Assembly (NCBI RefSeq): GCF_963576615.1
Contig: NC_088712.1
Location: forward strand, 33,365,155 to 33,429,154
Source of the DNA: Watersipora subatra
Lineage: Eukaryota > Bryozoa > Gymnolaemata > Cheilostomatida > Watersiporidae
Direction of reading: 5' to 3'
Length of the DNA stretch: 64,000 nucleotides
Shown here: one piece after another, positions 9,952 through 62,050 of the stretch
Numbering within the stretch: position 1 is the stretch's first letter
Layout: each line of letters begins with the position of its first letter
The notes under the pieces: generated by a model
What the model was told of the DNA's origin: nothing
What the model saw: only the letters and a program-made list of their open reading frames with translations
Databases searched by the model: none
Position numbers and translations under genes: made by a program

Positions 9952-9972
9952 CCAGGGATGTATAGGATACTT

Positions 9973-13228: not shown

Positions 13229-13336
13229 TGTAGTGGTGCAATTTTGAACAGTTACTCTTGTAATAAACTAGAACTCTTTGTATCGATTTTATCAATGATA
13301 AAATCTGAACAAAACTCTTTGTAACTGTTCAAAAGA

Positions 13337-15521: not shown

Positions 15522-16813
15522 TACCAAGACATGATTCTGAGCGAAGTCACTACTACCTAATGGTTAGTATTCTTATACTGCACTTTTATATTAAAAGATT
15601 ATGTCTTTATATTAATTTTGAGAACAATTAGTGTTGCATGGCTGTGCATAGTTATTATAATTATTTTAAAAATTTAAAATACATGTAGCACATCTTTTAT
15701 ATAGCATGGAACTTGAATAAGATAACTGTTTTGTAGGCACTGGAATATTTGTTCTGCATGTATCTATAACATGCAACTTGCATTAGCTTGCATAGCTTTA
15801 TATATAAGTTGTATATGGTACTCTGTTTGCAGCTGTTAGATAGGAAACTTGAGAAAATTCATTTAATGGGCTCTTTTTTTATAAAGGACAGCAGACCATT
15901 GAAAAAAGGTGAGCACAAAATACTTCACTAGGTTTGTCGGTAAATCTTACAAAAAGCAACAGTTACAGCCTTTGCATTCTAGCATAAATGGTTTAATCCA
16001 AAAACTCACTTTGAGCAACAATATTTGCAGGAAGCTTGTTTCTGTTGATGAGAGGTTTGCTGATTATGCTGTGAAAGATAATGAGATGGTGGCTATGCAA
16101 CAGAAAGATCGTGTAAGCTGTGGACTGTATGTTATCAAGGTGAGTGACACTCTCATTCGTAGAGGTCTCAAGACTTCAACAGTTATCAGTAGGAAACGTC
16201 TGGTAGGATTATTTATCTACACATTAACTATTACGGGACTATTACTAGGGAACCTAGTCCTGTTCTGCCAATTTTCATTGTTAACCACTGTTTTGTCAGC
16301 CAAATTAGTGGGGTTTCTTGTAGGGGCTTATGCAATTACTTACATTTCTTTTGTAAACTTATTAAAGAACAATTCTAAGAATCTCTATTTTTATACGGTT
16401 TTTAATATTTTCAGCATGCGCAACGATATCTTGAATCATTTGAGCTAGAAAATAGAAAAGATGGTGATATGTCTATAAATCCTTCCATACACCGTAAAGA
16501 TGGTGATATGTCTATAAATCCTTCCACACACCGTAAAGATGGTGATATGCCTTTAAATCCTTCCACACACCGTGAAGATGGTGATATGCCTTTAAATCCT
16601 TCCACACACCGTAAAGATGGTGATATGCCTTTAAATCCTTCCACACACCGTAAAGATGGTGATATGCCTTTAAATCCTTCCACACACCGTAAAGATGGTG
16701 ATATGTCTTTAAATCCTTCCACACACCGTAAAGATGGTGATATGCCTTTAAATCCTTCCACACACCGTAAAGATGGTGATATGCCTTTAAATCCTTCCAC
16801 ACACCGTAAATAA
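15522..16813 (+). pseudogene. Ulp1/SENP-like (C48) cysteine protease, C-terminal exons
   Basis: Four exon-like blocks with GT-AG borders: 15522-15562, 15833-15908, 16031-16139 and 16415-16813. Block 1 ends SERSHYYLM, matching the catalytic-His strand of Ulp1 proteases. Block 2 begins LLDRKLEKIHLMGS; where the family usually has Asp-Ser this copy has Gly-Ser. Block 3 has QQKDRVSCG, with oxyanion Gln and catalytic Cys at the spacing of QQxNGSDCG in SENP enzymes. Block 4 continues in phase (IK|HAQRYLESFELEN) and ends in nine 13-residue repeats and TAA. Blocks 2 and 3 join in frame only if a 7-T run at 15874-15880 has one base more, so this copy is frameshifted or the run is misread. Such proteases cleave SUMO or related modifiers and occur both as host genes and as cargo of large DNA transposons. 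Confidence 0.6.
16457..16807 (+). repeat. 39-bp coding minisatellite, 9 units
   Basis: Nine direct copies of a 39-bp unit encoding DGDMPLNPSTHRK, all in frame with the protease exon, followed at once by AAA TAA. Units differ by one or two substitutions (the first has SI for PL). The length is a multiple of three, so copy-number change would lengthen or shorten the protein tail without shifting the frame. Confidence 0.9.
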
Positions 16814-18538: not shown

Positions 18539-19225
18539 CATCCATTCTGTGAAGCTCCTCTTGTTTTGAAAGCATTTGTTCATACCAATTTTATCAATTA
18601 AAAATCCTCATTGTTAGTGTGCAACTTGGACATTCACCTGTTCCATAAACTTGAGACTAAAAACTGTTGCTGTTGTTTAACAGTCACATACCATTATGTT
18701 TTTATAAGGAAGTTATTCAATCTCTATTGATAAATCCTACATTGTCATTTCGTTTGTGTGTTAGTCTGTGTAAACGGTATCTATTTACACAGACTAACAG
18801 ACACATTTTTAGGCTGATTTTGTTACAACTTCGTACTCATATGCTCTGTGCTTTTAACACTTCACACTCATAGGTATTTATGAAACTCAAAAACGACATA
18901 ATTAGTTTCACATGATTCATGCAAAATCAGTATTTCAAAAAGACTCAAGTTTGTGGACAAGTGACAAGAAGTCGGCCAACGCATTTAGTGTGAAAACAAA
19001 CAATAATTATTAGGAAAAAAGCCCATCCGGTAAATTTTAAACCATTTATTCTTCGATTTTCTAAATTGTGTGATAGAAAAAAAGAGGAAAAATGTTGTAC
19101 TATGGCAGCCTATTCAAACACTGTAATATTTGTTTTGGTTAAAACTATTCAGATAGACGATGCCAAACTCCTTATCGTAGTAAGATTTGTTGTGAGAATG
19201 AAAGCTGAAAGTGCACAGCTACGAT

Positions 19226-19974
19226 GTCAATACCTGGGCACTGGCCATTTCTGATGTCAATACTTGGGCACTGGCCATTTCCGATATCAATACCTGTGCA
19301 CTGGCCATTTCCAATATCAATACCTGTGCACTGGCCATTTTTGATATCAATACCTGTGCACTGGCCATTTCTGATATCAATACCTGGGCACTGGCCATTT
19401 CCGATATCAATACCTGTGCACTGGCCATTTCCAATATCAATACCTGTGCACTGGCCATTTCTGATATCAGTACCTGTGCACTGGCCATTTCTGATAGCAA
19501 TACCTGGGCACTGGCCATTTCTGATAGCAATACCTGTGCACTGGCCATTTCTGATATCAGTACCTGGGCACTGGCCATTTCTGATATCAGTACCTGTGCA
19601 CTGGCCATTTCCGATATCAATACCTGTGCACTGGCCATTTCTGATATCAGTACCTGTGCACTGGCCATTTCCGATATCAATACCTGTGCACTGGCTATTT
19701 CTGATATCAATACCTGTGCACTGGCCATTTCCGATATCAAAACCTGGGCACTGGCCATTTCTGATATCAGTACCTGTGCACTGGCCATTTCTGATATCAG
19801 TACCTGTGCACTGGCCATTTCTGATATCAGTACCTGTGCACTGGCCATTTCCGATATCAATACCTGTGCACTGGCCATTTCCGATATCAAAACCTGTACA
19901 CTGGCCATTTCCAATATCAATACCTGTGCACTGGCCATTTCCAATATCAATACCTGTGCACTGGCCATTTCTGA
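19226..19974. repeat. 30-bp tandem repeat, about 25 units
   Basis: Unit TGATATCAATACCTGTGCAC followed by TGGCCATTTC, about 25 copies with substitutions at a few fixed positions (TGTGCA/TGGGCA, TATCAA/TATCAG, TGAT/CGAT/CAAT). The unit is a multiple of three and lacks stops in several frames on both strands, giving 249-303 codon open frames in at least four frames. That pattern follows from the repeat and is not evidence for a protein. Confidence 0.95.
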
Positions 19975-20615
19975 TCACACGCACATGCTACAGCGTATTA
20001 TAAAATGTAATCGACCAGTTTGCATCAAATATGTTGCGTATGAAAGCGTGTTGGTAAACAGAGAACAAATTATCGCTGAAAACCTAATCAAACGAACGTC
20101 ATATTTACATTTACTCGCTTGAAAGGTCAAAAGATTTTCCTGTTGTGTTTCTCACAATTATGGACTGGTCTTAAGGTTATTATAGTAACCATTGCAGAGT
20201 AAACCGAAAAATGAAATGTTTTGTACCCTAAATAAAAGGAAGACCTATGTGTCCCCCTTCTGAGGGCCACACAGTTTTCAATGAGATAGAAGGCTAAGAG
20301 AAAGTGTGGGTGAATCACAATAAATGAAACTTAGTCATGGAACTACAGATTATGAAAAAAATCTATATAACAGAACAAAAGTGAAAAAGTTAAGAAACGG
20401 TCATTTAAATGGCAATGCAAATACATTATACTTTGATACAACAAATAAACCTCATCATTAGGTATAATTGGGTTAGCTATAACTTTTTCTTTTATACACG
20501 TTGAATCTGTACTTCACTCCATTTTCAATTATAGTCTCCCCTTTCCTGCAATCAGACAAAGAAATGTGAGTGAAACTGGTAAATATCTTGTCATACACCA
20601 CAATTACTTTTTAAT

Positions 20616-22144
20616 GCAGTATAATACACCCCTATTTCTATAACCTTATCTAGCAGTATAATACACCCCTATTTCTATAACCTTATCTAGCAGTATAATA
20701 CACCCCTATTTCTATAACCTTATCTAGCAGTATAATACACCCCTATTTCTATAACCTTATCTCGCAGTATAATACACCCCTATTTCTATAACCTTATCTA
20801 GCAGTATAATACACCCCTATTTCTATAACCTTATCTAGCAGTATAATACACCCCTATTTCTATAACCTTATCTCGCAGTATAATACACCCCTATTTCTAT
20901 AACCTTATCTAGCAGTATAATACACCCCTATTTCTATAACCTTATCTAGCAGTATAATACACCCCTATTTCTATAACCTTATCTCGCAGTATAATACACC
21001 CCTATTTCTATAACCTTATCTAGCAGTATAATACACCCCTATTTCTATAACCTTATCTAGCAGTATAATACACCCCTATTTCTATAACCTTATCTCGCAG
21101 TATAATACACCACTATTTCTATAACCTTATCTAGCAGTATAATACACCCCTATTTCTACAACCTTATCTAGCAGTATAATACACCCCTATTTCTATAACC
21201 TTATCTAGCAGTATAATACACCCCTATTTCTATAACCTTATCTAGCAGTATAATACACCCCTATTTCTATAACCTTATCTAGCAGTATAATACACCCCTA
21301 TTTCTATAACCTTATCTAGCAGTATAATACACCCCTATTTCTATAACCTTATCTCGCAGTATAATACACCCCTATTTCTATAACCTTATCTAGCAGTATA
21401 ATACACCCCTATTTCTATAACCTTATCTAGCAGTATAATACACCCCTATTTCTATAACCTTATCTAGCAGTATAATACACCCCTATTTCTATAACCTTAT
21501 CTAGCAGTATAATACACCCCTATTTCTATAACCTTATCTCGCAGTATAGTACACCACTATTTCTATAACCTTATCTAGCAGTATAATACACCCCTATTTC
21601 TATAACCTTATCTCGCAGTATAATACACCACTATTTCTATAACCTTATCTAGCAGTATAATACACCCCTATTTCTACAACCTTATCTAGCAGTATAATAC
21701 ACCCCTATTTCTATAACCTTATCTAGCAGTATAATACACCCCTATTTCTATAACCTTATCTAGCAGTATAATACACCCCTATTTCTATAACCTTATCTAG
21801 CAGTATAATACACCCCTATTTCTATAACCTTATCTCGCAGTATAATACACCCCTATTTCTATAACCTTATCTCGCAGTATAATACACCCCTATTTCTATA
21901 ACCTTATCTAGCAGTATAATACACCCCTATTTCTATAACCTTATCTCGCAGTATAATACACCCCTATTTCTATAACCTTATCTAGCAGTATAATACACCC
22001 CTATTTCTATAACCTTATCTAGCAGTATAATACACCCCTATTTCTATAACCTTATCTAGCAGTATAATACACCCCTATTTCTATAACCTTATCTAGCAGT
22101 ATAATACACCCCTATTTCTATAACCTTATCTAGCAGTATAATAC
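20616..22144. repeat. 37-bp satellite, about 41 units, with higher-order structure
   Basis: Unit GCAGTATAATACACCCCTAT followed by TTCTATAACCTTATCTA (37 bp). The units are nearly identical. A CTAG/CTCG variant at the unit end recurs every third unit in the left part (111-bp period), and a rarer CACCACTATTT variant recurs 518 bp apart (14 units), showing block duplication. Neither strand has a long open frame. Confidence 0.95.
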
Positions 22145-22237
22145 ATCTCTTTCCCAAAACCTTGCGCTAGAGGACTTGAATGTAGGAGCTGAAGATGTGC
22201 GTTTTCCATCAACTTGATGCAAAACTACTGCAATCAT

Positions 22238-23926: not shown

Positions 23927-24036
23927 CTGGAGAGCACGAAGAGATGCTCAAACATCGGCATGTACGCATCACTCATATATTCCCCATCAATTTCAGTCAG
24001 ATAAAATTGAGTGCATTCTGGGATGGATAGCGCGAG
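23927..24036 (-). CDS. DHFR-like exon 5
   Basis: 110 bp, GATTTGCAG acceptor, CCAG|GTACGT donor. Encodes 36 residues with CTQFYLTEIDGEYMSDAYMP, aligning with the [19 protein letters not shown] segment of the other gene. It leaves two bases (AG) for a last exon that I cannot place with confidence; a Y-x-F-x-F-x-VY segment near 20230 is a weak candidate with a mismatched phase. Confidence 0.75.
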
Positions 24037-27000
24037 CTGCAAATCATGAAACCCTTGATTATATTGGAGGAGCAACTGAAGCCGACTGCTTAAGAGTGGA
24101 TCTATAATGACTGGTAACTTCACTAAGTGAATATATCACTATATATTATATCACTATATGCGTATAAACTAGTTTAAACTAGCAAACATCTATCACTGGT
24201 CTGACCGATAAGAGCTTACTGAACTCTAATCTATTATAATTAAAATAGGTCATTTTAATTATTCAACATTACAACATTCCATGAATATTCAGAAGGCGTC
24301 ATATGACCTCAACATTCCATGAATATTCAGAAGGCATCATATGACTTCAACATTACAACATTCCATGAATATTCAGAAGGCATCATATGACTTCAACATT
24401 ACAACATTCCATAAATATTCAGAAGGCGTCATATGACCTCAACATTGCAACATTCCATGAATATTCAGAAGGCGTCATATGACCTCAACATTGCAACATT
24501 CCATGAATATTCAGAAGGCGTCATATGACCTCAACATTGCAACATTCCATGAATATTCAGAAGGCATCATATGACTTCAACATTACAACATTCCATGAAT
24601 ATTCAGAAGGCGTCATATGACCTCAACATTACAACATTCCATAAATATTCAGAAGGTGTCATATGACCTCAACATTGCAACATTCCATGAATATTCAGAA
24701 GGCGTCATATGACCTCAACATTACAGCATTCCATGAATATTCAGAAGGCGTCATATGACCTCAACATTACAACATTCCATGAATATTCAGAAGGCGTCAT
24801 ATGACCTCAACATTACAACATTCCATGAATATTCAGAAGGTGTCATATGACCTCAACATTACAACATTCCATGAATATTCAGAAGGCGTCATATGACCTC
24901 AACATTACAACATTCCATGAATATTCAGAAGGCGTCATATGACCTCAACATTGCAACATTCCATGAATATTCAGAAGGCGTCATATGACCTCAACATTAC
25001 AACATTCCATGAATATTCAGAAGGCGTCATATGACCTCAACATTGCAACATTCCATGAATATTCAGAAGGCGTCATATGACCTCAACATTGCAACATTCC
25101 ATGAATATTCAGAAGGCGTCATATGACCTCAACATTTGTGAGAATAGATTATTTTCTAAGAATATGTTTTATTATATGGTTATATACATGGATTACAGTG
25201 CACTTTCAGGATACGATGTTGATCAGTTCCGGGATTGGCATCGGATGGTGAAAAAGTTATATGTAGGGGTATAGAAACCATAGTAATTATATAACGCAAA
25301 CTTCCCCTGGTAAAAATCGTCAAAATATATACTATTTTTATATATACTATTATACTAAATTTTATATAAGTGCTGTACATAATGAAAATTAGTAACAAAA
25401 CAGTATTTTAATCTTAGTAACTATAATTATCTACGGTAACTTTATAATATTTAGTGTATTTATTGGCTATGATCTTCATTAAAATGCAACGTTACAATGT
25501 CTATGAGCAGTACTACGTACTGTAGAAAGTTCTTACCTTCAAGACAGACGTACATATAACAAAAACTTTGAATTCACTTCAAATAAGTTTACCTTACTAA
25601 ATACACACAAACTTAAAGCTAAGTTTTAGTATGTATTTTAAACTGTTTTACTGAATTTTAACTTTCTATCCCTAAAGTTTTGTCACTTAACCCTTATCAG
25701 TTTCAGTTTTTGCTTTCACTATAACTTTTAGCGTACCTGTTATATTACCATTTTACACATGAGAATAACTGAATGAGAGAAATCGGTCATCATGTCTCTT
25801 TCATGCGTTGTGAAAATATTTTCGGCGAACAGCATCTCGGTGTCTTTGTTATTTTGACGTACGTAATAAGCACACCGACTGCCAAATTTGAACTCGGGGG
25901 AAAATCTTGTTGAATTCGTATAGTGAAAAAAGATTTGTATGGTGAGATGAAAAGACCATCATGTTCCATTTCGCACGGTGAAAAAATCGTATATCAGGGT
26001 AATCGTATCCTGAGGATGCACTGTATTGGGAAATATCTAACAACGATGACTTCTTAATACTTGAGCTAAGTTGACTCCCAGTTTTAAAACTGCTTCTTTT
26101 TAATGTACCGACCCTAAAATTTACATATCAAACGTAGAAAGCATGAGAATCAATATTTACAAATACTTGAGGTCTTGCAAAAACTTTTCCAAAACCAAAC
26201 ATAAGAAAAGTTTACTCACAGAACAACTTCAATTAAAATGAAATTGACAAAAGCATACAAACTGCACAAAACCCGGAAAGGAACCTAACCCCCCCTTTGA
26301 CAGAGGTATGCAAACTGTATGATAACTGGAAGAAAACCTGACCCCCTTTTGACAAAAGTATGCAAACTGTATGATACCTGAAAGGAAGCCTGACCTCCAT
26401 TTGACAGAAGTATACAAACTATGATACCTGGAAGAGAACCTGACCTCCATTTGACCAAAGTATACAAACTGTATGACACCCGGTAGGAAACCTGAACCCA
26501 CATTTGACAGAAGTATACAAACTGTATGATACCTGGAAGAGAACCTGACCTCCATTTGACGAAAGTATACAAACTGTATGACACCCGGAAGGAAACCTGA
26601 CCCAACATTTGACAGAAGTATACAAACTGTACGATACCTGGAAGGGAACCTGACCTCCCATTATCCAAACACTTTCAATTCTTTCATTCTGCTTGCACAA
26701 TTGGAGAGCTTCATCCATTGAAGATGCAACGAGATGGGTAGGATGGTTAGGTACCCTGCACAGCAATCAAATAAAACAAGCTACAAAAACAAGACCAGTA
26801 CATGTTATTACTGCAACGGTTAGTTTTCCTATGACCACACCCATTAAAAATGAGCAGCAAAAAAAGTTGCATTTCAAATTGAATCATTGGTTGATAGTTA
26901 CAAATATGCATTGAAACTTCATCTTCTCTAGGATCAAATCTCTGGGGGAACAACTAACAAAATATTCATTTCAAAAGCGAAGCCATTACAAATGCAAACG

Positions 27001-29242
27001 TGTAAAATTACTTTCCAGCTATGTAGTTGAATTTTCTAGCTAGATTATGAGGCACAATAACTATTATTATATATATGCGCTATAATACAATATATTACAA
27101 TATAAAGCATATTAAAGTATAACACAATATTAAACAATAAGGCAGAATTAAAATAGAAATTAGTTCGCTATTACCATAATACAATGCGTGAATCATTTTC
27201 AGGTGTTATTTCCAAAATGGCTTAGCCGAAACCTCCCCTTACAGTCGCTCAGCATTCACATCGTCCACATATATGACATGAAATTAGAGCAGATATTTGA
27301 CTCGAACTTCAAAGACTTCAAAAGAAGAACCTTCAAATTACTCAAAACAGCATTCTAAGCAAAACAACCGGTAAAAAAGTTAACCGTCAAATGTAAACAA
27401 TATAGTATGTCGTCCCCCCGACTTTATGACCACGTCCGCGGGAAGGTCAGGCAACTCAGTGCGAGGTGCAGCAAAACCCAATCTTCATTAATTTATGTAG
27501 AACTTTTTCATTAGGGCAAAAGTTTTCTACGAGACGATATCCACAATAATTTCTCTCGAAGTTAAAATTTGGTGATTTGTGTACTGATTAAATACATTAT
27601 TAAGAGATATACGTTGCTTGTCATGGAGTTCAGGGTTCAGAGTTCAGGTTTCCGTGATGGTGAAAGTGGAATTGCAAACAGATGAATGTTGAAGTCTCCA
27701 CTAAAACTTTAAAGTTCACCGAATACATACTAAAGCTTCCTTCAAGCATGTGTTTAGTAAAAGAAATTCATTTAAGTTAGATTCAGAGTTTATGTTACAC
27801 GCCTGTCATGAAAGTAAAAACTCTCCACGGTACGTTTTGCATGTAATGTTAATTATTTAGATTAGATTCAGGGTTTATGTTACGCGTCTGTTTCGAAAGT
27901 AAGAACTCTGCACTTAGTATATTGTAATGTTATATTATCTTGCAGATCACAACCACAAAGTGCACTACAGTGTACTACTTAAGGTACAACTACAGCTTAC
28001 TACTTAGTATGGTAAACTTATTTAAGTTGCATCAGAATCGATTGAATATACAGAATTGACGTATGTCCAATCCGTATTACGACCGGCCAGTCCAAACGCG
28101 GTCGTAAGTCGAAGACTTACTGTATATAAAATAAGTTAGCTAAAGGTTCAACTGGTGCAAGTTCGGGTAAGTTATGCTGTGTATTTCTACTACTGCAACC
28201 TCCGACTTTACGCAATGCCTAGCCTGCACTTGGATTAGTGTGTCTCAAAGGTAAAATAACAGCACTTATTAATAATTACTTTATTATTAATATATATTAA
28301 AACGTTACTTTATTATTATGCGACTTAATTTATACACTATTTTATTATTATGTTAATTTAGTATTATTATTATATGAGTATTGGCTCTAGCAAAAAAGGG
28401 TTATAACATACAAAGTGTTCTTAAATGAGTATTGGTTCTAGTATAAGAGGGTTATAACATAGAGTGTGTTCTTATATGAGCATTGGCTCTATTATAAGAG
28501 GTTTATAACATACAGAGTGTGTTCTTATATGAGTATTGGTTCCATTATAAGAGGGTTACAACATACAGTGTGTTCTTATATGAGTATTGGCTCTATTATA
28601 AGAGGGTTATAACATACAGAGTGTTCTTATATGAGTATTGGCTCTATTATAAGAGGGTTATAACATACAGAGTGTTCTTATATGAGTATTGGCTCTATTA
28701 TAAGAGGGTTATAACATACAGAGTGTTCTTATATGAGTATTGGTTCTATTATAAGAGGGCTACAACATACAGTGTGTTCTTATATGAGTATTGGCTCTAA
28801 TATAAAGGGGTTATAACATACAGAGTGTCGTTATATGAGTATTGGTTCTATTATAAGAGGGTTACAACATAGAAAACAGGTCTTATTGAAAGAATAGAAC
28901 TGTGCATATAGAGATTTGAGAATATTCTGCCAAGTTTCACACACCTGTCTGACGAGCTGGATAAAACAATGGTCAATACAGAAGCTCGAGACAACTCCTG
29001 CACACTGCTTGACTCAAACGTCCGTCTCCCTTTTATATTTGCTACAAGACCACCTGCAGTAGACCCATTGCTCAAATGTTAAGATCTATTAATCACATAA
29101 TACAAAATGCATGGAATAATCTTAAATTGGAATGAAAACTTCAATGCTAACCATAAAATTATATATGGGAGTAGATAGATACATGGTCTTACCTGGTGTG
29201 GAGGTAGAACTTGTTAGCGTTATGTAATATTCATAGTCTTTC
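23927..29242 (-). CDS. Divergent dihydrofolate reductase-like gene (exons 2-5)
   Basis: Four minus-strand exons match DHFR exons 2-5 in order, size and phase: 29193-29242, 28945-29053, 26638-26755 and 23927-24036, all with GT-AG introns and no stops, joining to about 128 residues. Key matches are KDYEYYITLTSSTS (Asp at the catalytic acid position), IKGRRTFES and TIVLS (as in MGRKTxxS and NIVLS), ESVWIMGG (NADPH-binding GG turn) and TQFYLTEIDGEYMSDAYMP. Exon 4 has the same 118-bp length as in the DHFR gene upstream. DHFR reduces dihydrofolate with NADPH. Here the Arg of the R-x-N-I-V-L-S segment, which binds the folate carboxylate, is replaced by Val, and GGSSVY is GGQVPF, so altered function or slow decay is possible. 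First and last exons are not identified; a weak candidate 5' exon is at 31903-31947. Introns contain two large minisatellites and a TIR element. Confidence 0.75.
24263..25135. repeat. 46-bp minisatellite, about 19 units
   Basis: Unit CATTACAACATTCCATGAAT followed by ATTCAGAAGGCGTCATATGACCTCAA, with GCGTC/GCATC and TTAC/TTGC variants; one early unit is shortened. Lies in intron 4 of the DHFR-like gene. The unit contains the palindromes TGAATATTCA and CATATG. Confidence 0.95.
25196..26024. mobile_element. TA-flanked TIR element, 829 bp, non-autonomous
   Basis: Left end CAGTGCACTTTCAGGATACG and right end (complement) CAGTGCATCCTCAGGATACG form near-perfect terminal inverted repeats flanked by TA on both sides (25194-25195 and 26025-26026). 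A second copy lies at 56969-57875. No transposase frame. TA duplication and a CAGT start suggest a pogo/Tc1-mariner type, but family assignment is inference. Confidence 0.8.
26245..26660 (-). repeat. 52-bp minisatellite made of a DHFR-like exon-4 end and splice donor
   Basis: About 7-8 units of about 52 bp. On the minus strand each unit reads GGAGGTCAGGTTCYCTTCCAG-type sequence followed by GTATCATACAGTTTGTATAC. The unit nearest the exon is the true exon-4 end and donor (CCAG|GTATCG at 26638), so the array repeats the last coding bases plus about 27 bases of intron. Several downstream units keep CAG|GTATC and could act as competing donors. Confidence 0.9.
26638..26755 (-). CDS. DHFR-like exon 4
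   Basis: 118 bp, GTGCAG acceptor, CAG|GTATCG donor. Encodes 39 residues including SSMDEALQLCKQNERIESVW and IMGGQVPFQ, aligning without gaps with exon 4 of the upstream DHFR gene. Its last 25 bases are the start of the 52-bp minisatellite unit. Confidence 0.85.
26960..28370. other. No gene; possible TIR element 27403-28124
   Basis: Intron 3 of the DHFR-like gene. A GTCGTCCCCCCGACTTTATG stretch near 27408 and GGTCGTAAGTCGAAGACTTA near 28102 look like imperfect inverted ends of an approximately 0.7-kb element. Twice-repeated TTAGATTCAGRGTTTATGTT lies inside. No coding signal. Confidence 0.35.
28376..28870. repeat. 51-bp minisatellite, about 10 units
   Basis: Unit GAGTATTGGCTCTATTATAA followed by GAGGGTTATAACATACAGAGTGTTCTTATAT, with TGGTTCT/TGGCTCT variants. 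Lies in intron 3 of the DHFR-like gene, ending about 75 bp from exon 3. Confidence 0.95.
28945..29053 (-). CDS. DHFR-like exon 3
   Basis: 109 bp, CTGCAG acceptor, CAG|GTGTGT donor. Encodes GLVANIKGRRTFESSSVQEL then SRASVLTIVLSSSSD. The split codons at both ends match exon 2 and exon 4 phases. Confidence 0.75.
29193..29242 (-). CDS. DHFR-like exon 2
   Basis: 50 bp, ATTTTTAG acceptor, CCAG|GTAAGA donor. Encodes KDYEYYITLTSSTSTP, aligning with human NEFRYFQRMTTTSSVE. Enters with 1 base and leaves 1 base of a Gly codon that exon 3 completes. Confidence 0.8.
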
Positions 29243-32839: not shown

Positions 32840-33775
32840 ATCATGAATTAAACTCCTATGTATGAATATTTGCTTAAATAAACTATAAAGATTTACCAGC
32901 TATACACGACTAATCGATTTTTCAAACTTATGATATTGAATAATTTTTGATTGGCCAGGAACCCAAATATTTCATATTTATATAAGTGACTGACTGAACC
33001 TACAAATATAAGGTGGTTGTGGTTGCATTTAGTCTCCTTAAACCTCCACACAATCAATTTCAGAGAAGTTATGAGATGCCAGAAAAGATCGAGGATTGGG
33101 TCAGAGGATTGCGTACTGATCAAAAGAAGCGATGGTCAGCGGACAATGAAAGCATAAAGAAGACTTGATGGCAAGTGTTTCAGTGCGCATATGTTATGAG
33201 GCTCAGTTTATTCTCAAGAGAAAAACTATCTTATTAACACGAATAATTTGAACATTTAAAAAATGATAACATTTGGATTTCTTCGATTAACCGTAAGTTT
33301 GCCTAAAATCTCAAGTGACATTATTTTGAACACGGAATACTAAACCAACCAAACAACCGACCCAATTCTTCAGCATGCCTCAGTTGACAAGTTATAACAT
33401 GTCTGTCAACCATAATTCGACATACCAACTAACTACTTTCCATACATCAATGAATTGAGTGATATGGAGTCAATTAATTGATCTGATTATTTGCAATATC
33501 TATATCTAATAACTCACTGCAGCTTAGGCCAAGGCAGGTTTAGACCAAGACCGATCCCTCTATTACTCGTGCACATCGCTGCCATCATAGATATATTCAT
33601 AGCCATGTCCTTCATTCTCTAAAAATGTTTAGTATAGATCTTATTTGTAATAACTTGAACAATGATGCGACGAGTAGATGAGCTAAAGCAAACGAGCGAA
33701 ATCAGAAGCTACGTCCTTGTCTTATTCATCAACAAAAGTCAGAGAATATTATATGTATATCTATAGACTATATAA
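32840..33775. other. No gene recognised
   Basis: AT-rich DNA between the two DHFR genes. The first AATAAA in the DHFR direction beyond the satellite is near 33207 (TTTATT on the plus strand), a candidate polyadenylation signal if the satellite is transcribed. Confidence 0.4.
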
Positions 33776-33782
33776 CTATAAC

Positions 33783-36700
33783 TACTAGTACCAGAATACT
33801 TGTAATATACTGAGTAGCTACTAGTACCTGATAGACTTGTAATATACTGAGTAACTACTAGTACCTGATAGACTTGTAACATACTGAGTAGCTACTAGTA
33901 CCTGATAGACTTGTAATATACTGAGTAGCTACTAGTACCTGATAGACTTGTAACATACTGAGTAACTACTAGTACCTGATAGACTTGTAACATACTGAGT
34001 AGCTACTAGTACCTGATAGACTTGGAATATACTGAGTAGCTACTAGTACCCGATATACTTGTAACATACTGAGTAACTACTAGTACCTGATAGACTTGTA
34101 ACATACTGAGTAACTACTAGTACCTGATAGACTTGTAATATAATGAGTAGCTACTAGTACCTGATAGACTTGTAATATACTTAGTAACTACTAGTACCTG
34201 ATAGACTTGTAATATACTGAGTAGTTACTAGTACCTGATAGACTTGTAATATACTGAGTAGCTACTAGTACCTGATAGACTTGTAATATACTGAGTAGCT
34301 ACTAGTACCTGATATACTTGTAATATACTGAGTAGCTACTAGTACCCGATATACTTGTAATATACTGAATAGTTACTAGTACCCGATAGACTTGTAATAT
34401 ACTGAGTAGCTACTAGAACCTGATAGACTTGTAATATACTGAGTAGCTACTAGTACCTGATATACTTGTAATATACTGAGTAGCTACTAGTACCTGATAG
34501 ACTTGTAACATACTGAGTAGCTACTAGTACCCGATATACTTGTAATATACTGAATAGTTACTAGTACCCGATAGACTTGTAATATACTGAGTAGCTACTA
34601 GAACCTGATAGACTTGTAATATACTGAGTAGCTACTAGTACCTGATATACTTGTAATATACTGAGTAGCTACTAGTACCTGATAGACTTGTAACATACTG
34701 AGTAGCTACTAGTACCTGATAGACTTGTAATATACTGAGTAGCAACTAGTACCTGATAGACCTGTAACATACTGAGTAGCTACTAGTACCAGATATACTT
34801 GTAATATACTGAGTAGCTACTAGTACCTGATAGACTTGTAATATACTGAGTAGCTACTAGTACCTGATAGACTTGTAATATACTGAGTAGCTACTAGTAC
34901 CTGATAGACTTGTAACATACTGAGTAGCTACTAGTACCTGATAGACTTGTAACATACTGAGTAGCTACTAGTACCTGATAGACTTGTAACATACTGAGTA
35001 GCTACTAGTACCTGATAGACTTGTAACATACTGAGTAGCTACTAGTACCTGATAGACTTGTAACATACTGAGTAGCTACTAGTACCTGATAGACTTGTAA
35101 CATACTGAGTAGCTACTAGTACCTGATAGACTTGTAACATACTGAGTAGCTACTAGTACCTGATAAACTTGTAATATACTGAGTAGCTACTAGTACCTGA
35201 TAGACCTGTAATATACTGAGTAGCTACTAGTACCTGATAGACTTGTAATATACTGAGTAGCTACTAGTACCTGATAGACTTGTAATATACTGAGTAACTA
35301 CTAGTACCTGATAGACTTGTAACATACTGAGTAGCTACTAGTACCTGACAGACTTGTAACATACTGAGTAGCTACTAGTACCTGACAGACTTGTAACATA
35401 CTGAGTAACTACTAGTACCTGATAGACTTGTAACATACTGAGTAGCTACTAGTACCTGATAGACCTGTAACATATTGAGTAGCTACTAGTACCTGATAGA
35501 CTTGTAATATACTGAGTAGCTACTAGTACCTGATAGACTTGTAATATACTGAGTAGCTACTAGTACCTGATAGACTTGTAATATACTGAGTAACTACTAG
35601 TACCTGATAGACTTGTAATATACTGAGCAGCTACTAGTACCTGATAGACTTGTAATATACTGAGTAACTACTAGTACCTGATAGACTTGTAATATACTGA
35701 GTAGCTACTAGAACCTGATAGACTTGTAATATACTGAGTAGCTACTAGTACCTGATAGACTTGTAATATACTGAGTAGCTACTAGTACCTGATAGACTTG
35801 TAATATACTGAGTAACTACTAGTACCTGATAGACTTGTAACATACTGAGTAGCTACTAGTACCTGACAGACTTGTAATATACTGAGTAACTACTAGTACC
35901 TGATAGACTTGTAACATACTGAGTAGCTACTAGTACCTGATAGACTTGTAATATACTGAGTAACTACTAGTACCTGATAGACTTGTAATATACTGAGTAA
36001 CTACTAGTACCTGATAGACTTGTAATATACTGAGTAGCTACTAGTACCTGATAGACTTGTAACATACTGAGTAGCTACTAGTACCTGATAGACTTGTAAC
36101 ATACTGAGTAGCTACTAGTACCTGATAGACTTGTAACATACTGAGTAGCTACTAGTACCTGATAGACTTGTAATATACTGAGTAGCTACTAGTACCTGAT
36201 AGACCTGTAATATACTGAGTAGCTACTAGTACCTGATAGACTTGTAATATACTGAGTAGCTACTAGTACCTGATAGACTTGTAATATACTGAGTAACTAC
36301 TAGTACCTGATAGACTTGTAACATACTGAGTAGCTACTAGTACCTGACAGACTTGTAACATACTGAGTAACTACTAGTACCTGATAGACTTGTAACATAC
36401 TGAGTAGCTACTAGTACCTGATAGACTTGTAATATACTGAGTAGCTACTAGTACCTGATAGACTTGTAATATACTGAGTAGCTACTAGTACCTGATAGAC
36501 TTGTAATATACTGAGTAACTACTAGTACCTGATAGACTTGTAATATACTGAGTAGCTACTAGTACCTGATAGACTTGTAACATACTGAGTAGCTACTAGT
36601 ACCTGATAGACCTGTAACATATTGAGTAGCTACTAGTACCTGATAGACTTGTAATATACTGAGTAGCTACTAGTACCTGATAGACTTGTAATATACTGAG

Positions 36701-38131
36701 TAGCTACTAGTACCTGATAGACTTGTAATATACTGAGTAACTACTAGTACCTGATAGACTTGTAATATACTGAGTAGCTACTAGTACCTGATAGACTTGT
36801 AATATACTGAGTAACTACTAGTACCTGATAGACTTGTAATATACTGAGTAGCTACTAGAACCTGATAGACTTGTAATATACTGAGTAGCTACTAGTACCT
36901 GATAGACTTGTAATATACTGAGTAGCTACTAGTACCTGATAGACTTGTAATATACTGAGTAACTACTAGTACCTGATAGACTTGTAACATACTGAGTAGC
37001 TACTAGTACCTGACAGACTTGTAATATACTGAGTAACTACTAGTACCTGATAGACTTGTAACATACTGAGTAGCTACTAGTACCTGATAGACTTGTAATA
37101 TACTGAGTAACTACTAGTACCTGATAGACTTGTAATATACTGAGTAACTACTAGTACCTGATAGACTTGTAATATACTGAGTAGCTACTAGTACCTGATA
37201 GACTTGTAATATACTGAGTAGTTACTAGTACCCGATAGACTTGTAATATACTGAGTAGCTACTAGTACCTGATAGACTTGTAATATACTGAGTAACTACT
37301 AGTACCTGATATACTTGTAACATACTGAGTAGCTACTAGTACCCGATATACTTGTAATATACTGAATAGTTACTAGTACCTGATAGACTTGTAATATACT
37401 GAGTAGCTACTAGAACCTGATAGACTTGTAATATACTGAGTAGCTACTAGTACCTGATATACTTGTAATATACTGAGTAGCTACTAGTACCTGATAGACT
37501 TGTAACATACTGAGTAGCTACTAGTACCTGATAGACTTGTAATATACTGAGTAGCTACTAGTACCTGATAGACTTGTAATATACTGAGTAGCTACTAGTA
37601 CCTGATAGACTTGTAACATACTGAGTAGCTACTAGTACCTGATAGACTTGTAACATACTGAGTAGCTACTAGTACCTGATAGACTTGTAACATACTGAGT
37701 AGCTACTAGTACCTGATAGACTTGTAACATACTGAGTAGCTACTAGTACCTGATAGACTTGTAATATACTGAGTAACTACTAGTACCTGATAGACTTGTA
37801 ACATACTGAGTAGCTACTAGTACCTGACAGACTTGTAATATACTGAGTAACTACTAGTACCTGATAGACTTGTAACATACTGAGTAGCTACTAGTACCTG
37901 ATAGACTTGTAATATACTGAGTAACTACTAGTACCTGATAGACTTGTAATATACTGAGTAACTACTAGTACCTGATAGACTTGTAACATACTGAGTAACT
38001 ACTAGTACCTGATAGACCTGTAACATACTGAGTAGCTACTAGTACCTGATAGACTTGTAATATACTGAGTAGCTACTAGTACCTGATAGACTTGTAATAT
38101 ACTAAGTAGCTACTAGTACCTGATAGACTTG
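33783..38131. repeat. 37-bp satellite, about 118 units, abutting the DHFR last exon
   Basis: Unit GAGTAGCTACTAGTACCTGA followed by TAGACTTGTAATATACT (37 bp), over about 4.35 kb. Two common sites vary (GTAACATACT/GTAATATACT and GTAGCT/GTAACT). Rare variants recur at exact unit multiples: CCTGTAACATATTGAG at 35464 and 36611 (1147 bp, 31 units) and CTAGAACC at 35711 and 36858 (again 1147 bp), so a 31-unit block was duplicated; shorter block copies of 5 and 15 units are also seen. The right end is the coding end of the DHFR gene. Confidence 0.97.
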
Positions 38132-38186
38132 GAATTCGTAATTGATGTCATTTTCAGTTTGAAGTCCAGCAGGAACACCGTCTAGC
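38102..38186 (-). CDS. DHFR: DHFR last exon, ending inside the satellite
   Basis: 85 bp after a TATTTTAG acceptor. Encodes [20 protein letters not shown] then YQVLVAT and TAG. The stretch from about CAAGTCTATCAGG onward is a unit of the 37-bp satellite. The stop (38102-38104) exists because this unit has TAG where nearly all other units read CAG. Confidence 0.9.
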
Positions 38187-41100: not shown

Positions 41101-44100
41101 TTTTATTTGAGAATCCATTTTTACCATTTTTACCATAACAGATAACACTGAACTGAGAACTGAGCGACAAAATAGCATATTGACATTTTTGTTGACTTGT
41201 CGTAATCAGTACAACAATCGCCAAATTTTAATTGCGAGAGAAGTTATTGTTTATATCGTATGACGGAAAACAAATTTGCCCTAGTATGGCGAGGATGAAA
41301 AAGCATCGCATTTCTACGAGTTAGGCGAAAAATATTTTATAACAAGGACTAAGTAACCCATGGGCGTAATGTGTCCACTAATACGTCAGTTAGCGTGTGC
41401 AATCGAGAAAGGGAATACGGTATATGATAAGAGCGTTAGAATTCTAAGGACTGTGTAGCTCGGTGGTTGAATGCGTGGTTAAAAACTTGTGGCTGCAATC
41501 TCTGTGAGTTCAAATCCAGCACTTCGTGAGTTTTTCAATGTAAGATTTTAATAGCAATAACTGGACAAGTAGACATTTGAACCAATAGATGATGATGGCA
41601 AACTCTGAGATTTATACTTATAGAAGATGGAATGTAATTATGCAGTCATACTTGGTTGGGTTAATATTTGCTAATTATAGATTCCTTGCTATCAATAGTG
41701 GCAGACACCTAAAACCTTTTCAAATAATCTCTAGCTCCTACATTATCCATGAATAGATTTTAGTTCCTACCTGAGGAAAGATCATTAAACTATTTGTTAG
41801 AGTACGTACTGGACACGCTTAAATTGAGATAGTTCCATGGTTGGCAAGAAAACATCACATTCCATCGAGTTATATAGCCTTGTGAGATATATTCTATGTA
41901 AATATGGATAGTTGAACGCTTCCTACAAAACAAGAAAACAACAACAAGGTTTCTGTAAAAAGTCTGGATGATCAAAAGGTTAAAGAGCATTTTAACAACA
42001 ACGACAGAACATTAATACTTCAGGAGTTGCCTGCTCTTGCTCAACTTAAGCTAAAACGTAAAAGGAGACAGCTCATAATTTGCTATGCAATTATTGTGAT
42101 TGTCAATTATTGTGATTGATACAACTGCGAGTGAAATGCAAGCTAAAGATGCTAAAAAGAGTCTTTACAGCTCAAATGGCAAAGTGATTAAAAATTGTTT
42201 CCAGTGCTATCCAACACTTCATCAGTTTTTAATTTTGTGATAAAAGAGTAACTTGAAAATAAATGATATTATACGAAGGACAATGAGGCCATCAGCTATT
42301 CATATATATAAAGTAATAAACACATGTTTAGGAGTAAACAGGGGTTGATAACCATGGGTCCACCGTGTGGTTTAGCACGTCTCATTTGACCAATGACCGG
42401 AATATAAGCCGTCCTACAGATGAATCTGAAAATTTAACACGTGTGGAGTTATCAACTCGACCCTTTGAATAAGGAAAGTTAATGCAAAAATACCCAGCTG
42501 TGATTTTCTATCTAGAGAAGATAAATAGGTGAAGGAAACAGGTTCAGACAACATAAAAAGGTAAAGATATTTTTAACCCTTGAGAACAAAACAAACCTTT
42601 TGCTCTAAAATAACAACTAAACGACCCATTTATCACATTGTTGCTCTTCTATTCAACTTTCATTCAAGATAAAGGATCATGATTAACAACTTTCTTTCAA
42701 GATGGAGGTTCGTGATTAACAACTAGAATTCAAGATGGAGGTTCATGATTAACAACTAGAATTCAAGATGGAGGTTCGTGATTAACAACTAGAATTCAAG
42801 ATGGAGGTACATGATTAACAACTAGAATTCAAGATGGAGGATCATGATTAACAACTAGAATTCAAGATGGAGGTTCAGGATTAACAACTAGAATTCAATA
42901 TGGAGGTTCATGATTAACAACTAGAATTCAAGATGGTGGTTCATGATTAACAACTAGAATTCAAGACCGAGGTTCACGATTAACTAAAATTCAAGATGAA
43001 GGTTCACGATTAACAACTAGAATTCAAGATGGAGGTTCATGATTAAAAACTTTCATTCAAGATGAAGGTTCATGATAAACAACTTTCATTCAAGATGGAG
43101 GTTCATGATTAACAACCAGAATTCACATTTCACAAATTGTTACCTAAAACAAGAAATATATAGCGTATTTGATGTAAACAGAACATTCTTGAGCAGTAAA
43201 ACAGATTATGAGTAAAGCTCTAATAAAGACAACTCTATTAAAGAGTGTCTGAAAGGTCCAAGCATTTTGCAACTTTCATTACTTTGGAGTAATCCTCTTC
43301 TGAATGTTACTTGAAACATTGATATACGTTATTATTTCAAAAAAACTATGTGTTGGAATAACCCTAAACGAAAATGCAAAAGAGTGTGTTAGCAGGCTGA
43401 ACATCCTTAGTCTCTAAGTGCTAATCAGTCCAGGTTTCCTGTGTTCTGTTGCAGCGATTACAAATCTTCCCATGTCGCTAGTTCAGCATTTCTAAACCGA
43501 GATTCAGCAAACTTAAACTAACTTTTAATCACATTTTTAATGAAAACAAAATATTAAAAATTTTCTGCTACAAGTTAAGAGAAAATAACATATTCAACTA
43601 CCCATTTCTTAACACATTCTTAATTAATGCGAGGTATTGCGCTTGCAACCCTATCAAAGGGCAGTCAAACAATGACACCTAATCTACTATAAGGTATAAG
43701 GTATATCTGTATAAGGTATAAGTCAGCACCAGGACGATATAGACGAATCTACTCTGGCTTTCGAATAAAACAAAACATGATGATTTTCAATGCAAATAAT
43801 ATTGCTATTTGCAAATTGCCCAGCTCCCTAGACTACTCCTCTTAAAAGCTGCCCTAAAATGAAATGGAAACATCAAATTCAAATTTTTAATATTGAAATA
43901 GCCATCTCACACAATATACACAAACATATATACTGTAAAACCTCTAATTGAATGCCACCTTCAACTACTACTTTGACAATAAAGGTAGAACCCATAATGA
44001 ACCCATAATATCAGGTGCCCCAGTATTGCTATCAGTATTGAACATAATACAACCCATAATACCAGGTGCCCCAGCATTGCTATCAGTATTGAACATGATA

Positions 44101-47100: not shown

Positions 47101-50100
47101 CATTTGCTTCGCCTGAAAAATGGCTAAATTTATCTTGCCAAAATTCTGACAAGCCATTTGGAAAATACACAGCCAGCCTCTATTTACATGCTGCCTCCAA
47201 ATGACTGCCACTAGAGAGGACGAGTTGAAAAATAGAGCATTATGGCGCTCAGTTAAAGGTTTTTTACGCTAAGAGAATGTTTTGCATAGCTTTTAACTGT
47301 AAAGATTTTATATAAACATTTATAAAATATAGTACTTCAATCCAAGTTTGGCCATTTAAAATTAAAGCTGACAGACTCGATACTAAACTGATAATGAACT
47401 AGCAGTCAAGATAAACAGAGGATCGATAAATAAATACCTGGTAGACACTGGAACCTCCAATTACAAACACCTCTTCCACATGGAACTCTTCCAGTGAGGT
47501 CAGTTCGAGGGCCATTTTAAAGGTAGGGACACGATGAACGCCTTCCGGTAGGGATCTAATGAGAAAAGAATTGTAATCAAATTACAATTAATTAATCAAA
47601 TCGTATTTTTGTTAGGCTCAAGATTTCCACACAATAACATCTTTTCACAACAAATGGCTATGCTAAAAAACTGTACCTATCATATACAAGAAAAATTACT
47701 GGGAGTGATGGGACAGTTTACAGGGTTGCGTAGTTATAAGCATTCAAACAGTTGACAGTTAGGCCTCAGATAAACTGACACCATCTTTTAGGTAAATCAA
47801 GAGTGATAGCAGTCGAGTTGAGCAGTGATCAGTCTTATCCATATTAATAAACCCCACTTTGCAATTCTGTCTGTTAGTCCATCTAGCGCTACGCCTATAC
47901 ACATTTTTTCTGTTGATTTCATCTAAACTTTACAACCATGTGCTTTCCACCAGGTCACTAAAAATATTTTGGGTTTCAAAACCAAATATTCTGGTTCCTG
48001 AGAGCCTCTTATAGACCGGCTATCTAGAAGAATGAGAGAAAGCCCCAGCATCACTAAACTAAGCTCACCGTATTACTATTGTTAGATGGAACATCCAGTA
48101 GCACTTGTCAGATTGCCGCTACCCTAGGACACTTATATTTCGCTAGTATTTAGTTTCGTGAGTAGCGCACAGAGTAAAATTTCGCTGCAACTTAATTTCG
48201 TGGCTCTGATGAGTGCGGAAATATAGTGATGTGAAAATAAATGCAGTGGAAAAAAACAAATTACATTCCTTAGGTCCAGTTCGCTAATAAGAAAAAAAAT
48301 TCAATTTGGGACTAGTTCGTATTTGTAAGCCACAGGTTGAAATGTGTGGGTGAGATAGACAATTCAATTTGATCACTTGCTGCCATTTGTTTCTTAGACT
48401 ATCAATGACGTCTAGGTCCCTCCCGCCGTGACTTTCACACTCGAATCCCAAGAAGAAGAAAATAGATAGGTAACAACCAACTTCACAACCAAAACTGTAT
48501 AACCCTTACGCTGCCATAAACGCATTTATGCGTTTTCTAGGGGCCACTGCCATAAACGCATTTATGGACTTTCTCAGCAATTGCGTGGTGACTGTGTTGT
48601 CCGAAGATTTCTCTATAAAATCAGCCTAAAACAACGAAGCAATTTTAAACTTTTGTTTGAGAATTTCTAATTTAAAAACGAACATTTTTCTGTGAGTTCA
48701 TTAACTACCCCGCGCGAGTCATAAAACAGGTAATTAGTTGTTGATGACATAATAGCCAATTTAGATTTTCGTGATTGTACAGATAATTAAAGTAGAACTT
48801 GAAAAATACTGTATACATATCATGAAGCAATATCGGCAATTTCGGTAAAATGGCTGGCACTAGGCCGATAGCGAATTTGTACATGGTTGGCAGTGAAAGA
48901 GATAATGTGGTTGGACCTGATAAGAGTTGATATTGTCTTTGGTTGGTAATAAAATTCATCACTACAATAATTATTCTTCAATTTTATGACTTCACTTACC
49001 AGACTTTCATCCTCATCAGTTACAAATTCGGTGACTAAACTGATATAATCTTAATTTTCTTTGCCATGCTGCTCAGTAGGTGTATTAGCTATGAATTTAC
49101 CAGAAATTTCCCATTGATCCCAACCACAGACGAAAATTGCCTGCATTTCTAATATGATGATTTTATTGTGAATATCAATGAACAAAGCTATTTAACGTCG
49201 CGTTTTCGCTGGTTCATTATGATAGCTTAGTTTCACTCATTAAATTTTCGCGAAAGGATGACACCACGAAAACGCGAAAGTTAGATGCCGCGAATACATA
49301 AGTGTCCTAGGGTAGTCAACATACCTAGTGACAGGAATTTAATGGATCATTCATTGTTAGCACCTAAAGAGTTAAAATTGAAGCTCCGCTTCTACCATTG
49401 CATATCATCTTTGTTAGTGATCGTGGTGAAAATATTGTTGCAACTCTATTGTGATAGGGAAGATGGTAAAGCCGCTATACAGCTTGCTAATGAATTTAAT
49501 AATTTAATTCAACACGGACAACATTTGCCTAATCAGTAATGAACTTACCAGCAAGTGTTTGTTTTATACAATGGCCTTTTAACAACTTTTGTTACAATGG
49601 CCATTTTAGTTGAATTTTATCAGAAATTATCAGGTATTATTCTATCATTTGTGATTGTTGTTGATGTTTGAGGTGGTCTGACTGCTAAGACGTTTCAAGA
49701 TTAAAATCAACCAATCTTTATCACGGTTAAAACGCTAGGAAAATAAAGATAGCCTAGACTTGCACAAAATGATGTACATAGCCACGAGGCTGCCGGTCTT
49801 TCGCACGTATTCACATCAGCTATTGCTATAAAAGTCAAGCGCTACACGGCTCTATTGGCATATACGGTATTTTAATTTGTATTTGCTCATGATTATTGAA
49901 ATAAAATTTTTAATCTAGCTACATATATACGGTATTGCTATAGATGTCTCAAATACTCCAAGGTAATTAAAATTTGTCTGATTCGTTTCTTCTAAATGCT
50001 TTATCTAGTCTATTAGTACTGACTTGTAGCAAATTTTTTACTGATCACTTTGTACTAGTTGATTAAGTACGAAACAAACAGTTTGTGAGTTGACCAAAAT

Positions 50101-60804: not shown

Positions 60805-62050
60805 TTAGTTCCAACAAACAAAGCAAAAGTACACAAACTGAAATATTCAAAATAGAATAAAATGAAAAAGCAAATTCAACACTGATGTTGTGCGTGGATT
60901 CGGATTACTTATGCACAACATAATTCCTCCACATCCAATCACAACAACCTTCACTAGCGCCTGAATCAGTAATAGTCAAACTAGTTCATACTACCTATGC
61001 AAAGGTATACAAACTAAGCATAGATAAAATAGAATAAGATGACACAACGAATTCAACACTGATGCATGTGTGGATGAGGGTTAATTGTGTATAGCATAAT
61101 TCTTTCCAAATTACGCATTCTACCCTATACTAATAAACTTTACTTCACCAAGGAATGATTTTTCAGCCAGTTTTGTTAACAGCATTCAACTAGTAAGAGG
61201 ACTACGAAGCAAAATACAAAATCATCAAAGCTAAAAGACTCTTTTCCATGTGTTCATCGAACTCATCCACAATCTACAGACCCTAGTAGCCTTCGTATGT
61301 CTCACTGAAATTTCAAAATGCGACTAAAACAGTACATACTTTAATGTCCACGGTAAATCGCCGTGAAGACCAATTCCAAGTTTATCACAGCATGCCACTA
61401 CAATATTGCAAGATTTAGTCATGATGTTACAAGATTCCAGTATCCTGACTTGGAATTTAAGCAAACCGCCAATTTTCGATTGCGAGCATTAGATAGAATC
61501 GACAAAAACTCAAGGTGCCTTCGGTGAGCAGTAAATGCTACGTACATATACAGCAAATAAAGTTGCCAAATTGTAGACTACTTAGTACATGTTCAAGTCT
61601 GGGAAGTTTACAAATCGTCGATCATTCTACATAAATTCGGCGTTCATTTTTGTGAGCGCTAATTTTTATTTGTTTAGAGCGAACTTTCTCCATATTTACT
61701 CGCTGTGTTTCTTCGGACATCCTGTGGCGGTGTCTATGGGCGACGAGGCAAATTATTTCAGTAACATCCTCTATAAATATTATTGGCGAATCTCAATGTC
61801 CGGTAATTGATCTCAGAAATTAGACTAACCGCGCCACTTCGTTTGAGTGATATGTCTATTGGCGGAAATCGGGCGTCACATGTTACGACGCGTGCTTTGT
61901 TATGAGCGTAAATCATGTCGTGACATGCATTAACAACGCACTGTTGGAAAATCTGTGCTCAAAAGTGAAAAGACTAGAAGAAGCATAATATTTTTTAACA
62001 ACGTCATAACTATTAGCTTTATACAAATTACAAACAGTTTCAGTTGGGCG
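60805..62050. other. No gene recognised; probable promoter region
   Basis: Contains a weak internal duplication (60770-60920 versus 60960-61110, both with CAACACTGATG.TG and GTGGAT). The right end precedes the ATG at 62054 and would contain its promoter, but no clear TATA box is seen. Confidence 0.35.

Follow-up and report, generated by a model that had tools for sequence, protein, structure and literature searches.

Where does a gene end when its open reading frame runs without a break into a satellite? The question is raised by a dihydrofolate reductase (DHFR) exon of the bryozoan Watersipora subatra, located in a window of 64,000 nt (the whole stretch of DNA that was analysed; scaffold C5, G000:C5), in whose coordinates all positions below are given. 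An earlier note, made from the sequence alone, had taken this exon for the last one of DHFR, with its final residues, its stop codon and possibly a 3′ untranslated region supplied by a 4.3-kb satellite of 37-bp units. The array exists, and the exon does read into it in frame, but the interpretation was mostly wrong: very probably, the gene encodes two fused DHFR domains and the array belongs to its intron 5, as a splice-site-spanning minisatellite grown from the end of exon 5.

The fifth intron of a two-domain DHFR gene

The longer gene emerges from a deposited Watersipora subatra protein, P0121 (365 residues, “uncharacterized protein”), which comprises two fused DHFR domains and was retrieved by a protein search with both DHFR domains of the window, joined, as query. 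Within the bounds that were searched, its spliced fit to the window had a single solution: 11 exons on the minus strand, separated by introns that are all of the GT-AG type, encode 365 of its 365 residues. The exon at the satellite is the fifth of these 11, and six more exons follow the array, the last of them closing at 20473 with the modelled stop codon; neither the coding end nor the stop codon of DHFR is provided by the satellite in this model. Exon 5 is predicted to be joined from 38120 to 33618, the splice junction TATCAG/GTACTAG (a slash marks the splice site) lying inside the first 37-bp unit. An acceptor immediately precedes exon 6, in a phase that agrees with the donor-like CAG/GTACTAG of array unit 1, and the exons downstream of the array have open frames and matching phases. 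With human DHFR as query, several DHFR-like matches, mostly weak, were found on the minus strand; they fall into two sets, the second of which starts just past the array. The features of the gene are listed below; each rests on the fit of P0121 unless another basis is given.

61340..61422, minus strand: exon 1, start codon at 61422; exact to P0121
53956..54111, minus strand: exon 2, domain 1
47438..47555, minus strand: exon 3, domain 1
41810..41922, minus strand: exon 4, domain 1
38120..38186, minus strand: exon 5, last of domain 1, its final 12 bases being the start of array unit 1 (P0121 fit and unit register)
33782..38135, minus strand: 37-bp minisatellite across the exon 5/intron 5 boundary (Tandem Repeats Finder, TRF)
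38102..38104, minus strand: TAG formerly taken as the stop, intronic in the gene model (units and P0121 fit)
33619..38119, minus strand: intron 5, 4,501 bp, with donor CAG/GTACTAG in unit 1 and acceptor catttttag/AGAATG
33518..33618, minus strand: exon 6, first of domain 2, RMKDMAMNISMMAAMC...LPWPKL
29193..29242, minus strand: exon 7, domain 2
28945..29053, minus strand: exon 8, domain 2
26638..26755, minus strand: exon 9, domain 2; unit 1 of a second array includes the final ~25 bases of the exon (MGGQVPFQ region; P0121 fit and unit register)
26244..26662, minus strand: second boundary minisatellite, 8 units of ~52 bp spanning the donor of exon 9 (TRF and unit register)
23927..24036, minus strand: exon 10, domain 2
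20473..20545, minus strand: exon 11 with the gene-model stop codon TAA

The 37-bp array comprises 117.7 copies with 95% matches and 0% indels according to TRF. In register from 38131 along the minus strand, it resolves into 117 whole units of 26 types, with a mean pairwise identity of 95.5%, and accounts for 4,338 bp of intron 5 (96% of 4,501 bp). Unit 1, CAAGTCTATCAGGTACTAGTAGCTACTTAGTATATTA (38131-38095), contains the end of exon 5 at 38120; the repeat unit spans the exon-intron boundary, and splice signals recur in many of its copies. CAGGT, in the form CAGGT[A/T], is found in 109/117 units, and the donor 9-mer CAGGTACTA is identical in 104/117. The exon had been read as ...INYEFQVY followed by the satellite. 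It does run in frame into the array, but QVY already belongs to unit 1. Similarly, the residues QVLVAT and the TAG stem from unit 1 when the sequence is read unspliced, but they are intronic in the model that reproduces P0121. The observation that nearly all units carry CAG where this one has TAG is borne out (CAG 112, CAA 2, AAG 1, CAT 1, TAG 1 among the 117 units), and the reading frame confirms that CAG at this point would add 21 further residues before a stop. It was also correctly noted that AATAAA is missing from the transcribed strand, intron 5 containing neither AATAAA nor ATTAAA; the 3′ untranslated region through 4.3 kb of satellite, in turn, dissolves into an intron in the gene model. 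Rfam gave no match at gathering score within the window.

Two candidate readings of the gene were rejected. Domain 1 is not a pseudogene frameshifted before exon 5, as the donor TGTCCA/GTACGT restores matching phases, and the second set of DHFR matches does not lack its third exon, which is present at 29053-28945.

Origin of the array and rival explanations

The first 12 bases of the 37-bp unit encode QVYQ, a segment that sits in a strand at the end of domain 1 (residues 171-180) in the structure model. In an alignment of 14 double-DHFR proteins Y178 never varies and V177 hardly does, and the double DHFR of Bugula has FQVYQR at the alignment position of QVYQ. When the genome was searched with the 37-bp unit, 19 matches of at least 93% were obtained, all at this locus, together with 10 others of 67-73% on C1, C2 and C6, all counts being lower bounds; no copy above 73% was found elsewhere by this search, which skips common words and simple repeats. 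Within the same lower-bound search the unit did not recur at many loci in the manner of a dispersed satellite. Because QVYQ is common to Watersipora and Bugula, and no close copy was found elsewhere, the array probably derives from the exon end rather than from invasion, and the sequences make copying outward from the exon much more likely. Of the two origins previously offered, seeding by DHFR coding sequence with outward expansion is retained, whereas invasion with replacement of the original end is not supported.

The array probably arose in the following manner: a seed of 37 bp, in which the final 12 coding bases of exon 5 are followed by 25 bases of intron start, would have been tandemly duplicated, and the duplicated seed would then have expanded into intron 5 by unequal exchange. 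The order of unit types along the array shows repeated blocks, which are compatible with such exchange. Exon 5 would still end functionally in unit 1, whose CAG/GTACTAG donor the spliceosome would take and join to exon 6 across 4.5 kb that hold 103 more identical donor 9-mers. Exon definition, acting on the exon 5 acceptor and the nearest donor, would presumably favour the first of many equal donors. Retention of the intron, or use of a later donor, would reach the TAG and yield a domain-1-only protein. We infer the use of unit 1 in vivo, the history of seeding and expansion and the silence of the extra donors from this arrangement.

It is also conceivable, if unlikely, that intron 5 itself was born by tandem duplication, with splicing between the two copies of a doubled exonic AGGT segment; this is the Rogers model, according to which introns are reportedly gained by tandem duplication at AGGT. 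The array shares with this model the tandem duplication of a segment with AG/GT, and the coincidence of the donor with an array that makes up nearly the whole intron counts in its favour; such an origin is proposed for amphioxus globins in the available part of PMC3087553. Unlike in the model, there are many copies, only the donor is in the array, the acceptor lies outside it (163 bp past its end, in unrelated sequence), and there is no sign that the intron is new; moreover, the fusion of two gene copies would by itself predict an intron between them.

Somewhat less probable is a DHFR that is complete with domain 1, with an mRNA ending in the array and the TAG of unit 1 as its stop. The frame is indeed open into this TAG, domain 1 is DHFR-like along its full length by profile, alignment and structure model, the same donor 9-mer is on offer in most units, and downstream of the modelled stop codon 1,423 bases pass before an AATAAA appears, which counts weakly in the same direction. 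Yet P0121 continues into domain 2, as do its relatives, the exons downstream of the array remain open in matching phases, and intron 5 is devoid of AATAAA and ATTAAA. A domain-1-only form could be a minor product, through intron retention or a later array donor. Least credible is that an outside satellite invaded and replaced the end of exon 5, VY and the donor being supplied by chance: the weak matches on C1, C2 and C6 and the abundance of tandem arrays in this genome would suit it, but QVYQ is common to Bugula, VY is nearly invariant, no close copy was found in the genome search, of 74 rotations of the unit 3 place V or I before Y at codons 2-3 and a single one yields QVYQ, and in two kinesin cases treated below (L082, L037) the repeated codons fall within the kinesin profile match.

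Growth of a boundary-spanning minisatellite from exon 5 is the reading that we retain, and several points weigh against it. First, P0121 may itself be a prediction. The genome of 783.70 Mb was sequenced with HiFi reads at ~39-fold, giving a primary assembly with a quality value (QV) of 63.2, and its Ensembl annotation, a possible source of P0121, was built mainly on transcriptome alignments (PMC12902671, as far as the text was available). Second, the privacy of the 37-bp unit to this locus has the limits of a search that skips common words and simple repeats. Third, the missing AATAAA and ATTAAA in intron 5 prove little: they are weak evidence because the model's own stop lacks an AATAAA for the distance given above, with an AGTAAA at 358 bases. 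Fourth, arrays contain 2/10 donors and 0/10 acceptors of the double DHFR gene, which is no excess over chance given an array coverage of 20% for the window and 26% for the gene span. Finally, in the kinesin survey splice sites were not enriched for arrays over intronic control points.

Arrays at other exon-intron boundaries

The second boundary array of the gene begins, in unit 1, with the end of exon 9, including its invariant GG codons, followed by the intron start. At the donor position its 8 units read CAG/GT in 4, CGG/GT in 3 and CAG/TT in 1, and the sole match of a genome search with this array was the array itself. Altogether, 41 of the 1,098 coding bases of the gene lie inside arrays. 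Another 37-bp array, of 41 copies and with a different consensus, occupies 20616-22145, 71 bp upstream of exon 11; beyond the DHFR stop codon, at a distance of some 500 bp, lies an array of a 30-bp unit (19223-19975; 25 copies) that is stop-free in several frames on both strands.

Twenty 10-kb stretches taken at round-number positions of the genome had an array coverage of 11.1%, against 18.0% for the window on equal measure. Three of the 20 contain arrays of more than 100 copies, with units of 53 bp (L023, C4:30000000-30009999), 18 bp (L027, C6:30000000-30009999) and 10 bp (L032, C10:10000000-10009999). The DHFR array is large, yet its size is not unique in the genome. The simple fact that arrays overlap splice sites was rejected as evidence, since coverage is high and control points were struck equally often.

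The frequency of boundary arrays was surveyed in kinesin genes, for which a profile search of the genome (PF00225) yielded at least 131 exon matches. The sample comprised 54 stop-free matches, chosen for the most part by E-value rank, a few being skipped, with flanks of 400 bp on each side for 40 exons and of 150 bp for 14. Arrays or short repeats lie at the match end, or within 40 bp of it, in 5/40 exons and likewise at the match start in 6/40 (TRF); most of them stop before the splice site. Read by eye, a splice site falls within a tandem array in 5/54 exons, as 2 donors and 3 acceptors. In L037 the donor array has a unit of 32 bp in at least 13 copies, with the exon bases CAGCAAAACTGTGATG (SKTVM) preceding GTGAGT. 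The donor array of L082 (G000:C1:56449604-56450053) has a unit of 45 bp in 4.1 copies by TRF and continues up to the limit of the fetched sequence; as far as fetched, the start of the intron holds in-frame copies of the SSRSHSVFTVT codons, one of them varied, each followed by GTAAGTG. We take SSRSHSVFTVT to be the conserved switch I motif of kinesin, and the repetition of these codons points to a direction from exon to array. The acceptor arrays are those of L045 (52 bp, 7.9 copies), in which three candidate AGs all lie within the array and exon codons are part of it if an upstream AG is the acceptor, and those of L053 (39 bp, 7 copies) and L077 (23 bp, 6.5 copies), both of which end at the acceptor AG (copy numbers from TRF). 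L044 was not counted, as its acceptor could not be placed, and neither were L071 and L047, in which the repeats lie near the splice site and not across it.

When the 40 exons with 400-bp flanks were tested automatically, the donor proved duplicated in 1 and the acceptor in 3, compared with 3 and 4 for the respective control points 90 bp inside the introns; the scorer picked other copies of the site than the eye in L037, L082, L045, L053 and L077, and it found no donor in L065 and L073, so that 52/54 donors were tested. Arrays over splice sites are thus about as frequent as at nearby intron points; they appear to be tolerated, and a preference for splice sites is not shown.

As a tentative generalization, which we hold with somewhat less than even confidence, arrays in this bryozoan genome may often grow across splice sites, at about 1 exon in 10, and copy exon ends and splice signals into introns in dozens; the rate is based on 5/54 sampled kinesin exons and 2/11 DHFR exons. 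If true, introns here would be built to a fair extent from copies of their own boundaries, which would form a standing source of new splice sites and introns, and donor selection by U1 would have to tolerate more than 100 identical donors in one intron. The frequency in kinesin genes makes tandem duplication, as a feed for intron evolution, countable in one genome.

Elsewhere in the window, exon-like stretches at 15903-16813 on the plus strand have a weak match to Peptidase_C48 (Ulp1; E 0.005, below the curated cut-off). A 39-bp array at 16457-16810 on the same strand continues the Peptidase_C48-like stretch, open in frame to a TAA, and is possibly another exon-seeded array. Long open reading frames of a long terminal repeat (LTR) retrotransposon occupy 9022-13267 on the minus strand, with matches to reverse transcriptase, RNase H and integrase, and with protease matches below the cut-off.

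Double DHFR proteins, satellites and mirages

P0121 is one of a family. Thirteen other two-domain proteins (P0122-P0134, some of them partial) were found among the best 120 of 764 matches listed; they include those of Bugula, Mactra, Mercenaria, Mytilus, Saccostrea, Ylistrum (two forms), Argopecten, Solemya, Tubulanus and Lamellibrachia, presumably a bryozoan (Bugula), bivalves (Mactra to Solemya), a nemertean (Tubulanus) and an annelid (Lamellibrachia). The PF00186 profile matches exons 1-4, joined, with E 6e-32 and exons 9-11, joined, with E 8.4e-10; in a genome search it gave one match, exon 2 of this gene, and missed the other exons, so that this search is uninformative on further DHFR genes. 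The structure model of P0121 has two runs of strands and helices that resemble each other (mean predicted local distance difference test, pLDDT, 88.3; predicted template modelling score, pTM, 0.53), and the 50 listed PDB matches are all DHFR or DHFR-thymidylate synthase (DHFR-TS), about one domain long, the half that is matched not being indicated. Judged by the Pfam match of exons 9-11 and the alignments, domain 2 is a DHFR domain. The two domains were compared in nine proteins (Watersipora, Bugula, Mactra, Mercenaria, Mytilus, Saccostrea, Tubulanus, Argopecten and Lamellibrachia; the set omits Solemya, P0127, P0130, P0131 and P0133). Arg70 (human numbering), a residue of the canonical active site, is present in 9/9 copies of domain 1 and in 0/9 copies of domain 2, and position 30 is acidic in every copy of domain 2 (D in 8, E in 1); both positions, we assume, have a functional role in DHFR. 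Domain 2 is conserved, yet probably not an ordinary DHFR. No literature on such a double DHFR was found among the titles listed. The arrangement resembles the bifunctional DHFR-TS in that a DHFR domain is fused to a second domain, which here is DHFR-like and not TS; one bivalve relative, P0126, is named bifunctional DHFR-TS in its record.

In its period, its copy number and its repeated blocks of unit types, the 37-bp array is like ordinary intronic minisatellite or satellite DNA, from which it differs in that it starts in coding sequence, includes the donor and is private as far as searched. The intronic minisatellites described for earthworm metallothionein, in the accessible text of PMC12783039, are not boundary-spanning ones.

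The closest counterparts are the “mirages” of amphioxus, minisatellite-like tandem duplications across exon-intron boundaries of Adh3, BflGb6, BflGb9, TnC and PGBD5. As described in the available parts of PMC3087553 and PMC3902484, they have units of 10-160 bp, cover 5′ or 3′ boundaries, carry splice signals in many but not all copies, vary in length and reportedly leave regular splicing undisturbed. No earlier report of splice-site-spanning minisatellites outside lancelets was found among the matches listed, which are open-licence PMC papers. Like mirages, the Watersipora arrays consist of tandem units over an exon-intron boundary, many with splice signals, and by this anatomy, as far as sequence can define it, they are mirages. 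That splicing at the 37-bp array proceeds normally is suggested by the deposited P0121. Beyond replacing a wrong DHFR gene model, the finding extends splice-site-spanning minisatellites beyond lancelets and to high copy number, and an intron with 104 identical donor 9-mers, of which the gene model employs the first alone, offers a natural test of donor choice by the spliceosome. The scale is different: haplotypes of BflGb6 have 6 and 3 units in the portions of the papers at hand, compared with 117 units and 4.3 kb in Watersipora, where, in another phylum (Bryozoa), such an array fills nearly all of an intron and two of them occur in one 11-exon gene.

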